Shown in pieces: positions 58,938 through 64,000 of a DNA stretch of 64,000 nucleotides; position 1 is the stretch's first letter, and the number at the start of each line of letters is the position of its first letter. The position numbers and the translations under genes were made by a program. Source of the stretch: Oscillospiraceae bacterium (GTDB taxonomy: Bacteria > Bacillota > Clostridia > Oscillospirales > Ruminococcaceae); NCBI GenBank assembly GCA_022835495.1, contig BQOK01000001.1, positions 2,232,001 through 2,296,000 on the forward strand, given 5' to 3'. The notes under the pieces were generated by a model that made no database searches, was not told the origin of the DNA, and was given only the letters and a program-made list of their open reading frames with translations.

Positions 58938-58988
58938 AAAGGCGCGCCGCAAATGGCTTTGTGATGCCATTTGCGGCGCGCCTTTTTG
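58938..58988 (+). terminator. Terminator of the gcv operon
   Basis: 17-bp perfect arms (58941-58957 and 58966-58982) followed by five T. Confidence 0.92.
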
Positions 58989-59021
58989 ATCATTCAAATT
59001 CGCTCTTGGCGCAGCGAATCA

Positions 59022-59204
59022 TTATGCCAGTAATCCAAGATTGCCAAGTAGCCATACGCAATCCTCTAGCCCCTGCCGGTAGATGAGTTCTGTTTCACGT
59101 TTTTGCCCTGATCCAAGCTCAAGCAAAACTTCATCTATCATGTCTTTCTGATCTCTTGTCAGATTGGTGGTCAGCATTTCATCTATTTTTGTCGAGGTTG
59201 TCAT
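59022..59204 (-). CDS. Small protein of unknown function, paired with an RHH protein
   Basis: 60 residues (MTTSTKIDEMLTTNLTRDQK... ending YRQGLEDCVWLLGNLGLLA), all-helical by appearance with an amphipathic C-terminal helix. Its ATG 59204 lies inside the 3' end of the RHH gene (26-base overlap), so the two are co-expressed. I do not recognise the family. The RHH-plus-small-protein layout resembles a toxin-antitoxin or mobile-element regulatory pair, but nothing shows toxicity. Confidence 0.6.
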   Translation of the reverse strand: MTTSTKIDEMLTTNLTRDQKDMIDEVLLELGSGQKRETELIYRQGLEDCVWLLGNLGLLA

Positions 59205-59361
59205 AAACCTTATGAATCCCCTGCCTTATCACTTCCGCCCGCGAAACATTCATTTTTTCACTGCACTTCTTTAGCTTATCGAATGTTTCATCGTCGGCTT
59301 GAAATTTGACAGATACATTCTTCGGGTTATCAGTAGGACGTCCCATCTTTTTTTCACCCAA
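59179..59361 (-). CDS. Ribbon-helix-helix DNA-binding protein
   Basis: 60 residues from TTG 59361 (GAGGTGAG upstream) or 55 from ATG 59346. VSVKFQADDETFDKLKKCSEKMNVSRAEVIRQGIHKVYDNL is a clear CopG/Arc-type strand-helix-helix: one beta strand for the major groove and two helices. An 11-bp palindrome overlaps its promoter, so autorepression is expected. Confidence 0.78.
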   Translation of the reverse strand: MGEKKMGRPTDNPKNVSVKFQADDETFDKLKKCSEKMNVSRAEVIRQGIHKVYDNLDKNR

Positions 59362-59384
59362 TCGATTCTCACCTCACTTTATTA

Positions 59385-59424
59385 GGTCATTAAGTATTAC
59401 AACTTAATGACCCAATAAAGTCAA
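59385..59424 (-). promoter_or_regulatory. Promoter with overlapping palindromic operator of the RHH gene
   Basis: -35 TTGACT (59419-59424), 17-base spacer, -10 TGTAAT (59396-59401). Inverted repeat GGTCATTAAGT (59385-59395) and complement (59402-59412) is centred exactly on the -10 box. The remaining gap 59425-59568 shows nothing recognisable. Confidence 0.75.
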
Positions 59425-59614: not shown

Positions 59615-60563
59615 CTTTTATACTGTCACTAAATTATAGATGCTATATCAACACTGTTTTGCAAATCATTCCACTTTTCGATCATCAACCTTTTGCATTC
59701 TTGCGCAGAGTTTAATTGAAGAAGTTCCTTCGCCGTTATACAAACAATAAAAAGATTTTCTGCCGCCAAGCGATAAATCTCTTCATGTGCGTTCTCTGTA
59801 ATACCGTTAGACGCAAACAGAATAGCAGTTTTATTCCCCTTCCTGTTGGAGATATGTGCTATATTCCTAATTTGGTGGATATTCACATGTGAACTCCAGT
59901 TTTTACATTCCACCAAAATATAAGCCCCCAACTGCCACAGCTCATCATCCAAAGAAATATTTGCCACACTGAGATCTATTTCCTGAGCGCCTGCCCGGAT
60001 ACGGCGACCTGTTATTTTCCACCCGTTCACATTGGAGAGCATATATGCCGCTGCGTCTTCCCAAAGCGCTCCCTTTTTGTTTGGATCCTTTTCATATATG
60101 GCATTATTGATTAATGCATGAAACTCCGGGGGTAAAAATTTGTTATGTGGTATCTGAAGATTCAGCAGCTGCCACAAATATGGCAAATAGACATATCTTG
60201 AATTCATAGTTTGGTGCATATCTTTGGATATTACAGGTTCGTCATCTCCTTCAAGAAATTTACGGAAATCAAAAATATATCTTAAAAGAGTTTTCCAATA
60301 CATTGACTTTGGAATGATAGGAGGTGCATCCATAGTTATGCAGATGTTCTCTTCAAGAAGATTGATGAATAACTCATACACTTTTGATATACTTTGCGCA
60401 TCCCACTCTTTTCCCGAAATCGCACACAAATAGAGAAAAGCTTTATGCCATTCTTCGCAGATATCGGTTGGTTGAAGCCATTTTCCATAAGCATAAATAG
60501 TGCCCCCATACCCGATTTGCCGGACAGAAAAACAATCTGTATAATGGAAAGGGGTAATGAAAA

Positions 60564-60884
60564 ATGTCAACCAAAGAACGAAAGCACCCAGCGCCGCCGC
60601 GTTACGATGAGGCCTTCAAGGCGGGGGCAGTGCGGATGGTCACCGAGCAGGGGCGGCCCAGCCGGGAGGTGGCCGCGGAACTCGGCATCTGCATCGACAC
60701 GCTGCGCAGCTGGCTGAAAGCGGCGGGCGCACCATCGCCGGGGCAAGCTGACCGCCAAAACCGCGACGCCAGACGCCTGCGCGAACTGGAGACGGAGATT
60801 CGAGCACTGCGCAAGAAGCTTGAAGAGAAAGACGGGGTCATTGACATCCTAAAAAAATCCGTCGGCATACTTTCCAAACCATAG
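60564..60884 (+). CDS. IS3-family transposase OrfA, IS-C
   Basis: 106 residues. HTH (REVAAELGICIDTLRSWLKAAG, about residues 34-55) and a coiled coil (RRLRELETEIRALRKKLEEKDGVIDILKKSV). A run of seven A at 60851-60857 (A AAA AAA in frame) near the end is the usual -1 slippery site leading into orfB. Confidence 0.92.
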   Translation: MSTKERKHPAPPRYDEAFKAGAVRMVTEQGRPSREVAAELGICIDTLRSWLKAAGAPSPGQADRQNRDARRLRELETEIRALRKKLEEKDGVIDILKKSVGILSKP

Positions 60885-60928
60885 AGGACAAGTACCGGTA
60901 CATCCGTACGGCCCGCGCGGGGGCCTCT

Positions 60929-61753
60929 GTGGAACTTGTATGCCGACTGCTGGAGGTCTCCCGCAGCGGGTACTACGAATGGCTGGGCCGCAAACCCTCT
61001 TTGCGCCGGCAGAAGGATCAGGAACTGAAACGCCGGCTGCTGAGCCTGCACCAGCGTTATCCCGCCCTTGGGCTGGACAGCCTGTATCACCTGATCCGCC
61101 CGCAGCTTTCCTGCTCGCGCAAGCGCATCCACCGCCTGATGAACGAGATGAACATCTCCTCCACGCGCAGGCGTGCCTACAAAGCCACGACCAACTCAAG
61201 ACACGCGCACCCCATCGCGCCCAATCTCCTTGCGCGCCGCTTCTCCTTTGACAAGCCAGACACCGCATGGGTCGGCGATATTACCTATATCCCCACCGGC
61301 GAGGGCTGGCTCTACTGCGCTGTTGTGAAAGACCTTTGCACAAAGCAGATCGTCGGCTACGCCTTCTCCGACCGCATCGACACAAATCTCACTCTCGCCG
61401 CCCTCGGCATGGCCGTCCGGCGCCGCAAGCCTCTGCCCGGCCTCATCTTCCACTCCGACCGCGGCGTCCAATACGCCGCCTACGCTTACCGTCAGCGTCT
61501 CGCCAGCCTCGGCATCCGGCAAAGCATGTCCCGCAAGGGCGATCCCTATGACAACGCCGTGGCCGAAAACTTCTTCAGCTGCCTCAAGTGCGAGTGCGTC
61601 CATCTGCGCCATTTCGCCTCAAGGGCACAAGCCATGGCAGACGTCTTCGCTTATATCGAGACCTTTTACAACCCAGTGCGCCCGCATTCCTCTATTGGCT
61701 GGCGTCCTCCGGATGCCTTTGCGCGTGCCTTGTCTGAGCATCCCGCCGCCTGA
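60929..61753 (+). CDS. IS3-family transposase OrfB (DDE integrase), IS-C
   Basis: 274 residues counted from GTG 60929, but the frame is open from the slippery A-run upstream (RRHTFQTIEDKYRYIRT...), so the working protein is probably an OrfAB fusion by -1 frameshift at 60851-60857. Catalytic Asp in WVGDITYIP, Asp in FHSDRGVQY and Glu in NAVAENFFSCLKCE are present. Intact and potentially active. Confidence 0.93.
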   Translation: MELVCRLLEVSRSGYYEWLGRKPSLRRQKDQELKRRLLSLHQRYPALGLDSLYHLIRPQLSCSRKRIHRLMNEMNISSTRRRAYKATTNSRHAHPIAPNLLARRFSFDKPDTAWVGDITYIPTGEGWLYCAVVKDLCTKQIVGYAFSDRIDTNLTLAALGMAVRRRKPLPGLIFHSDRGVQYAAYAYRQRLASLGIRQSMSRKGDPYDNAVAENFFSCLKCECVHLRHFASRAQAMADVFAYIETFYNPVRPHSSIGWRPPDAFARALSEHPAA

Positions 61754-62570
61754 GTGTGATACGACAAGATATCCTGCGTTTCTTTCTGTTTTTTCTTCAT
61801 TTTTACTGTCCACGAAACCGGGAAGGGCACATAGGGTTTAAGAATATGGACTGTAGGTTTGATGAACAAAAGGCACCTAAATCGTTTGGGTGCAGGGTTT
61901 CTTTCATATACGTGGCATCTTCGCTCAAAATAACTTGATGCCCTCCCTCAAATAAAAGTCTCCATGTACCTGTTTGCGTTTCGGGTAACGCCGCAATCAC
62001 TTTTCTGCCAACAAAATCACGCATAAAGAAAGATCGAATCATCAACTGCGAACCACATAATTCAGGCAGTTCACGCTCTATCCACAGCGAAATTGTGCCC
62101 TCAATGATAGGATCTCCCATATCATTGGATCCATGGTTGCAACATATTCCGCCAATGATAAAATCACCGTAATCTTGATAAACACGCTTTGGAAAATGAT
62201 CTGGTTGTTCGCAGAAAAACTCCTGAATGCTTCGATTAAAAACATTTCCTGCAGTATCTAGCCTGCCTGATGCTTTTTTAATCCGCTTTCCGCAGAGAAT
62301 CCGTTGATAATTTAATTTCAGTTCCTTCTCAATAATAGAAACCACTTTGTTTGCTTTTTCCTTTATGCCTACAACAGCGAAAATATGAACAAACCTTGCA
62401 TCTTCATCAGTTGCTTCAGCCAAAGCCATTGTTTGCTGATAGAAGCCCTCTTCAATATGGTTATATGTATTAACTTGCTGCATATATATCATGCCGTTCT
62501 CTTCATATCCGCTGAGGTATAGGTACAAAAGCCCTGCCGAAGAAATCCACGCTTTCATATCCTCACCTCC

Positions 62571-62608
62571 AAAAAAGTAAAACCGCGTGGAATTGCTTCC
62601 ACACGGTT
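62571..62608 (-). terminator. Leader terminator upstream of the nuclease gene
   Basis: 12-bp arms (62581-62592 and 62597-62608, one G-U, loop GCAA), followed on the minus strand by TTTTACTTTTTT and then the GGAGGTG ribosome site. It lies between a promoter (62640-62667) and the gene, so it could attenuate transcription; it may also end guaA transcripts. Confidence 0.75.
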
Positions 62609-62639: not shown

Positions 62640-62667
62640 ATTATAGCACAAAATGCCCATTTTTCAA
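62640..62667 (-). promoter_or_regulatory. Promoter of the interrupted nuclease gene
   Basis: -35 TTGAAA (62662-62667), 16-base spacer, -10 TATAAT (62640-62645). From 62668 to 62811 I see only a weak CTCAG/CTGAG hairpin after guaA. Confidence 0.7.
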
Positions 62668-62811
62668 TTTGATATAATTATTTTTAGTATCAAAATGGTC
62701 TCCGTTCATTCTCCAAATTCTTAAACTATGGAAAAAGCACGAGATAAGCTGGGCTTTTCTGGGAAAAACGAGGCTCTGGGAGACCTCAGAGAACTGAGAG
62801 AATTTTACCCC

Positions 62812-64000
62812 TTATTCAAATTCAATGGTAGCCGGCGGCTTACCGGTGCAGTCGTACAGCACGCGGTTCACATGCGGCACCTCGTTCACAATGCGGCTGG
62901 TCACCTTCGCGATCAGTTCCCAGGGCAGATAGGCCGGCTCAGCCGTCATAAAGTCCGTGGTGGTCACCGCACGCAGGGCCACCGCGTAGTCGTAGGTGCG
63001 CTCGTCGCCCATCACGCCCACGCTGCGCATGTTGGTCAGAGCCGCAAAATACTGGCCCAGGTGCTTTGCCTCGCCGCTGGCGGCAAGCTCCTCCCGCCAG
63101 ATGGCGTCAGCCTCCTGTACCATTTTGATCTTCTCTCTCGTCACCTCTCCCACAATGCGGATGGCGAGTCCCGGCCCCGGGAAGGGCTGGCGGCTCACCA
63201 GCTCCTCGGGCAGTCCCAGCTCCCGCCCCGCGCTGCGCACCTCGTCCTTGAACAGATCCCGCAGCGGCTCAATAATCTCTTTAAAATCCACATAGTCCGG
63301 CAGGCCGCCCACATTGTGGTGGCTCTTGATCACGGCCGACTCGCCGCCCTGGCCGCTCTCCACCACGTCCGGGTAGATGGTGCCCTGCACCAAAAAGTCC
63401 ACCGTGCCGATCTTTTTTGCCTCCTGCTCGAACACCCGGATGAATTCCTCGCCGATGATCTTGCGCTTTTCCTCGGGCTCCACGGCGCCCCGCAGCTTTT
63501 CATAAAAGCGCTGGCGGGCGTCCACGCACACAAAATTCAGGTCATACGCCCCCTCGGGTCCAAAGACCGCGCACACCTCCTCGGCCTCGTTTTTGCGCAG
63601 CAGGCCGTGATCCACAAACACGCAGGTCAGCTGTTTGCCCACGGCCTTTGCCAGCATTACCGCGGCCACGCTGCTGTCCACCCCGCCGGAAAGGGCGCAC
63701 AGCACCCTGCCCTTCCCCACCTTTTGGCGGATGGCGCAGATCGAATCCTCCACAAAGGAATCCATCTTCCAGTCGCCCGCGCAGCCGCACACGCCGTGCA
63801 CAAAGTTTGCCAGCATTTTGCTGCCCTCGCGTGTGTGAAGCACTTCGGGGTGGAACTGCACGGCATACAGCTTTTTTTCAGGCCATTCCATTGCGGCGAC
63901 CGGGCAATTTGTCGTGTGACCAGTAATGGTGAACCCCGGTGCCGCGGCCTCGATGTAATCGTTGTGGCTCATCCAGCACACGGTTGCCGGGCTCACGCCC
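62812..64000 (-). CDS. guaA: GMP synthase (glutamine-hydrolysing), 5' end outside window
   Basis: 396 codons of the C-terminal part are present; the frame is open at the window edge. End of the class I glutamine amidotransferase domain with the catalytic His-x-Glu in QFHPEVLHT, then the ATP pyrophosphatase domain with P-loop [11 protein letters not shown] and [10 protein letters not shown], and the dimerisation domain ending PPATIEFE. Converts XMP to GMP. The neighbouring genes do not belong to purine synthesis. Confidence 0.97.

Follow-up and report, generated by a model that had tools for sequence, protein, structure and literature searches.

A predicted Mrr-type nuclease gene interrupted by an IS3-family insertion sequence in an AT-rich island behind guaA

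The window, a stretch of 64,000 nucleotides from the genome of an Oscillospiraceae bacterium, contains two open reading frames on its minus strand that are separated by an insertion sequence and lie close behind guaA. This arrangement raises the question of whether both frames are the halves of one gene and, if so, what the encoded protein may have done and how it came to this site.

The interrupted gene and its insertion sequence

The 5' part (61832-62558, minus strand) runs from the ATG at 62558, with GGAGGTGAGG immediately 5' of it, to residue 242 and encodes an N-terminal segment of no known family. The 3' part (59629-60500, minus strand) covers approximately residues 242 to 531, with a helical middle and a C-terminal Mrr-type PD-(D/E)XK nuclease domain. 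When 60501-61831 and one copy of the flanking TAG are left out, the minus-strand join of 59629-60500 and 61835-62558 gives 1596 nt, equivalent to 531 codons plus the stop codon, uninterrupted by any other stop and identical in sequence whichever TAG is dropped.

Since the frame would be recovered exactly by chance in about one case in three, this result alone is weak evidence, and intact relatives were therefore sought. The scan of genome contigs provided three full-length homologues, each as a single ORF, in Diplocloster agilis (75% identity), in a Phascolarctobacterium MAG (about 61%) and in a Clostridia MAG (about 60%). In addition, a profile search over 398 genomes of the phylum found three distant full-length members (L027-L029) with 24-28% identity to the Diplocloster protein and E values from 1e-69 to 1e-81. 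Intact single ORFs are thus present in six other genomes. At the insertion point the window reads LNP|IYAYGKW, Diplocloster LNPIYSYGKW and both the Phascolarctobacterium and Clostridia MAGs LNPIYAYGKW, and the distant members also read across it. Since all intact members span the insertion point, the two fragments are, judged from their sequence, one gene broken by a transposon in this copy, as the initial annotation had proposed. The opposite reading, in which two unrelated genes recovered a common frame by chance, has in its favor that the fragments are separate ORFs in the window and that such a recovery is not rare, but six single-ORF homologues cross the junction with residues that agree with the window there, and neither close nor distant homologues have the halves as independent genes. 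Its probability is therefore negligible.

The insertion sequence (60501-61831, plus strand, 1331 bp) is antiparallel to the nuclease gene and presents the features of the IS3 family: orfA with a Pfam HTH_Tnp_1 match (60564-60884, plus strand), orfB with an rve integrase-core transposase match (60929-61753, plus strand), terminal inverted repeats and, at the window copy, a 3-bp target duplication (TAG at 60498-60500 and 61832-61834). Recent activity is indicated by 21 copies of approximately 100% identity in this genome. A matching 3-bp duplication was found in two of the eight copies inspected (L001-L008, the best-scoring ones of the own genome), as would be expected if copies had recombined with one another or if the duplication were less regular. 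The G to the left of the element, present in all eight fetched copies, was considered as part of the IS and rejected, since the fetched copies were the best-scoring ones and the match starts after this G in 11 of the 21. In the IS end, an outward-directed TTGACA-18-CATTAT match (60541-60570, minus strand) is oriented towards the nuclease fragment, which might be transcribed from it.

Upstream of the gene, a promoter-like site TTGAAA-16-TATAAT (62640-62667, minus strand), with 11 of 12 consensus positions and a TG before the -10 box, is followed by a 12-bp terminator-like hairpin with a T-rich tail (62581-62608, minus strand; fold z of -4.35), located between this site and the ribosome-binding site. 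A hairpin is found at a comparable leader position in Diplocloster, and the Phascolarctobacterium MAG has one behind its att site, while the region upstream of the gene in the Clostridia MAG contains no such hairpin. Since guaA reads towards the island, these hairpins might just as well act as terminators and shield the cargo from guaA. Of the "attenuated promoter" initially proposed, then, the promoter-like site and the hairpin do precede the gene, but attenuation is not supported, both being consensus matches only.

Domains, relatives and selection

The C-terminal domain was assigned from family motifs and a predicted fold. Pfam PF04471 (Mrr_cat) is matched above its curated cut-off in all seven full-length members: the window 3' piece scores 30 bits (E of 5.9e-7) against a cut-off of 21, and the weakest member 21.3 bits. 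E389, D417 and E439-x-K441 (Diplocloster numbering) are invariant in the seven proteins. The AF2 model of residues 361-525 has pLDDT values mostly between 62 and 88, falling to about 41-48 at 401-440, and VIA-align comparison of this part (approximately 361-525) returned Nt.BspD6I (Z 11.2), FokI (10.2), AF1548 (9.6), EcoT38I (9.0), AspBHI (7.9) and MspJI (7.8), and in several of these matches the recognition part is distinct from the nuclease, which is C-terminal. Modeling and structure comparison left out the distant members. RPB5 entries appear among the same structural matches with Z of 8-9, so a Z of that size may mean only a common arrangement, and it is the motif and the Pfam match that carry the assignment. 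Searching PDB sequences with the family profile returned no meaningful match (best E of 0.07). Motif, profile and model together indicate a complete Mrr-type PD-(D/E)XK nuclease domain, which agrees with the initial description of the domain as Mrr-like; the check that it had proposed for a nuclease fold gave a predicted fold matching PD-(D/E)XK restriction nucleases at Z of 8-11.

The N-terminal part behaves differently in the searches. Its approximately 240 residues gave no significant match in Pfam, NCBIfam, PHROGs or PADLOC, as had been anticipated, and together with the helical middle it extends over about 370 aa. Pfam searches of this region found no Mrr_N winged-helix domain at E values up to 0.1-1 and no SRA-like domain (the N-terminal model is of low confidence), nor any CARF or other ligand-binding family. 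The AF2 model has pLDDT values mostly of 25-65 in the N-terminal part, and 41.5 when this part was folded alone. A PADLOC match to "oligonucleotide-cyclase" (one distant member, E of 0.003) and the families SIS (two of seven members) and DUF5751 (one of seven) were dropped since they are not common to the family. Invariant residues are nonetheless distributed along the segment (G9, D51, G64, W159, E163, P165, G169, R185, K186, W199, E204-G206). For non-saturated pairs, dN/dS lies between 0.10 and 0.18 in the N-terminal, middle and nuclease segments alike, which indicates purifying selection on all parts of the protein. Being about as constrained as the nuclease, the N-terminal part has a definite function.

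The family has a patchy distribution among the Bacillota genomes scanned. Besides the own genome, full-length relatives were found in 1 of 197 relatives, 0 of 393 genomes of the order, 1 of 390 of the class and 3 of 397 of the phylum, and in one family-level relative (G033) a copy of the gene is scattered over different frames. Scanning of viral contigs with the protein and two alignments gave no relative, nor did tblastn against 50,697 phages, and among 72,556 plasmids tblastn gave only a distant nuclease-domain match of 25% identity in Kozakia.

The Kozakia baliensis plasmid (L020, 2337-6260) encodes a distant Mrr_cat protein of 331 aa, behind which lie a SIR2-family gene and an ATP-binding gene. 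In another locus (L041, 608-2031, in genome G1380), a gene whose product has a Nuc_deoxyrib_tr-like N-terminus is overlapped at its end by a 179-aa nuclease-only ORF akin to the C-terminal domain. This arrangement is a different sensor-nuclease pairing.

The island behind guaA

Directly behind guaA, the nuclease gene makes up the main cargo of an AT-rich island of 3.8 kb, whose borders and recurrence in other Bacillota lineages the initial annotation had missed. The 3' end of guaA, GAATTTGAATAA, forms one att-like end (62812-62823, minus strand), and GAATTTGAATGA, which agrees with it in 11 of 12 positions, forms the far one (58990-59001, minus strand). No other same-strand site in the 64 kb reaches 11 of 12 matches, and between the two lie 3834 bp, or 2500 bp once the IS and one copy of the target site are subtracted. 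Without the IS, the GC content of the island is 39.5%, compared with 59.9% for the rest of the window, so that the AT-rich character noted before was confirmed. No integrase ORF was found in the window island.

Directly behind guaA, the element arm that begins with CTCTCAGTTCTCTGAGG (62764-62811, minus strand; arm sequence CTCTCAGYTCTCNGAGG) is common to the Phascolarctobacterium and Diplocloster loci, with alignment scores of 33 and 21, respectively, against shuffle maxima of 19 and 14. In the Phascolarctobacterium MAG, the order is guaA, a tyrosine integrase broken into two frames and the nuclease gene. In Diplocloster, about 165 bp before the nuclease gene, there is a guaA-like core, GAGTGGGAGTAA, accompanied by this arm. 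Altogether, the gene is found 0.15-1.5 kb behind a guaA-type att site in three genomes. A pattern search of 99 family genomes for the arm gave no match; guaA in the family is thus not generally accompanied by it. Since the Phascolarctobacterium gene has the sequence behind guaA beside it and the Diplocloster gene is preceded by it, the nuclease can be regarded, at least in part, as cargo of guaA-targeting elements. No guaA-type att site or integrase was seen near the Clostridia MAG copy or two further copies (L031 and L032). Within the genus, the search for an empty guaA site retrieved no genome other than the own one.

guaA is a known integration site: its 3' ends, carrying 11-bp repeats, serve as att cores in Tn5801-like elements (PMC4844618), several IMEs target it, and CIMEs are elements that have kept their att sites and lost the genes for integration and transfer (PMC5704250). 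With att-like repeats kept and the integrase absent, the window island was filed as a CIME-like remnant instead of a complete element, and its sequence fits a decayed guaA-targeted one. It resembles the guaA-targeting ICE, IME and CIME elements (Tn5801, ATE-1, GIsul2) in the site at the guaA 3' end and in the short direct repeats, and the Phascolarctobacterium relative has a tyrosine integrase as well. The window island differs in its size of 3.8 kb (2.5 kb if the IS is not counted), in lacking genes for an integrase or for transfer, and in a cargo of one nuclease gene and small ORFs.

One of these ORFs (59182-59361, minus strand) encodes a small ribbon-helix-helix protein of the CopG/Arc-like type (phrog_876, E of 7.5e-18; RHH_1 and RHH_3 just below the Pfam cut-off). 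Directly upstream of it, a 20-bp inverted repeat (ACTTTATTAGGTCATTAAGT; 59376-59421) is possibly its operator. A perfect 20-bp inverted repeat at 58938-58985, ending just before the far att-like site, is probably the terminator of a dihydrolipoamide dehydrogenase-like gene.

Possible function and comparison with known systems

The neighborhoods lend moderate support to a role in defense. The Diplocloster gene is accompanied by genes for a PLD nuclease, a HEPN-TPR protein and a ParE toxin, and at a distance of about 7 kb there is a type IIG-like methylase. The Clostridia MAG gene has AbiN-like and Fic (PDC-S04) genes as neighbors. No defense genes were recognized in the L031 and L032 neighborhoods, and no recognizable defense island surrounds the distant members L027 and L029. 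A DNA methyltransferase was not recognized beside the window, Phascolarctobacterium, Clostridia MAG, L031 or L032 copies. As for the idea of a defense gene switched off by an IS, the interruption stands, and the defense role is plausible, with two relatives near defense-type genes and others not.

The favored explanation, with a probability of about 0.58, is that of a solitary, methyltransferase-less, type IV-like restriction nuclease that travels as cargo of guaA islands and is inactivated here. The N-terminal and middle regions, together about 370 aa, would recognize or sense the target, presumably incoming DNA with a mark or feature lacking in the host genome, which the Mrr-type PD-(D/E)XK domain would then cut, and the protein may in this way act against phages or plasmids. 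It would have spread as cargo of tyrosine-integrase elements entering the guaA 3' end, until a recent jump of the IS3-family element separated the N-terminal part, still behind the promoter-like site, from the nuclease and thereby inactivated it. A recognition half joined to an Mrr-type nuclease half is the plan of type IV enzymes such as MspJI, but a nuclease of this type does not by itself imply modification dependence, and LlaGI does not target modified DNA (PMC3874153). It is for this reason that the probability was not set higher. Also against the type IV-like reading are a fold common to signal-activated nucleases (Can2, Z of 8.2 and 7.6), the N-terminal fold without a confident model, the surroundings of L027 and L029, which have no recognizable defense genes, and the type IIG-like methylase near the Diplocloster copy.

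The Can2 matches lead to a second, distinctly less probable explanation, a signal-activated abortive-infection effector in which the N-terminal part would respond to a small ligand or to a signal of infection and thereby switch on the nuclease, which would cut nucleic acid with little specificity, as in CARF nucleases such as Can2. The structural matches of the nuclease part include Can2 (8bao, 7bdv) and VC1899, and related nuclease domains adjoin sensor-like genes, namely the Nuc_deoxyrib_tr-like gene of L041 and the SIR2 and ATPase genes of Kozakia. The Can2 match, however, is limited to the nuclease part, a common fold, neither CARF nor another ligand-binding family was matched, and the neighborhoods read contain no conserved partner or signal-making gene. 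It is also conceivable, though unlikely, that the nuclease serves the guaA-targeting element by excluding competitors or processing its DNA, and does not protect the host. The position of the gene shortly behind guaA-type att sites in three genomes, and directly after the integrase in the Phascolarctobacterium MAG, points in this direction, but the Clostridia MAG, L031 and L032 copies stand apart from att sites and integrases, and the ORF of the window island stayed open after the loss of the integrase until the IS hit it.

Compared with E. coli Mrr (PF04471), the restriction-type nuclease favored here shares the C-terminal E...D...E-x-K motif, the solitary gene and a catalytic half behind a putative recognition half, while it lacks an Mrr_N winged-helix match and its N-terminal and middle part is unclassified. 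The modification-dependent type IV enzymes MspJI and AspBHI are alike in having an N-terminal recognition part (putative in our case) and a C-terminal Mrr-type nuclease (Z of about 7.8), but their SRA-like domain gave no sequence match here. The type IIS enzymes Nt.BspD6I and FokI, the best C-terminal structural matches (Z of 10-11), also have separate recognition and cleavage domains. Both are parts of systems that include methyltransferases, and their recognition domains are known, whereas no methyltransferase lies next to the window gene. Can2 and the CARF nucleases are similar in placing a possible sensor part before a PD-(D/E)XK-fold nuclease, and differ in that no CARF match was obtained here and no signal-making system was seen nearby.

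The protein is thus a new, rare subfamily within a known nuclease class and not a new system. The "undescribed architecture" suggested at first holds for the N-terminal part, absent from the libraries searched, while the plan of a recognition or sensor half and an Mrr nuclease half is familiar. A literature search, with subscription papers mostly outside it, found no description of this Mrr architecture or of a nuclease as cargo at guaA. A bolder proposal, to be taken as tentative at best, sees in the conserved N-terminal part (about 240 aa, or about 370 aa if the helical middle is counted) a new fold or a sensor for a phage- or plasmid-specific feature by which the Mrr nuclease is controlled, which would make this a new single-gene defense family in guaA-targeted islands across several Bacillota classes.

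In this small and patchy family, curated libraries recognize the catalytic half only, and the main interest lies in the unclassified N-terminal part, for which the intact relatives are ready test proteins. That a guaA island here carries little besides a nuclease makes it worthwhile to look for other undescribed defense genes at the 3' end of guaA. As regards guaA itself, the Phascolarctobacterium MAG has two such genes, the one adjacent to the nuclease gene (L015, 2187-3545) being the shorter, with 452 aa, and Diplocloster has one long and one short guaA.
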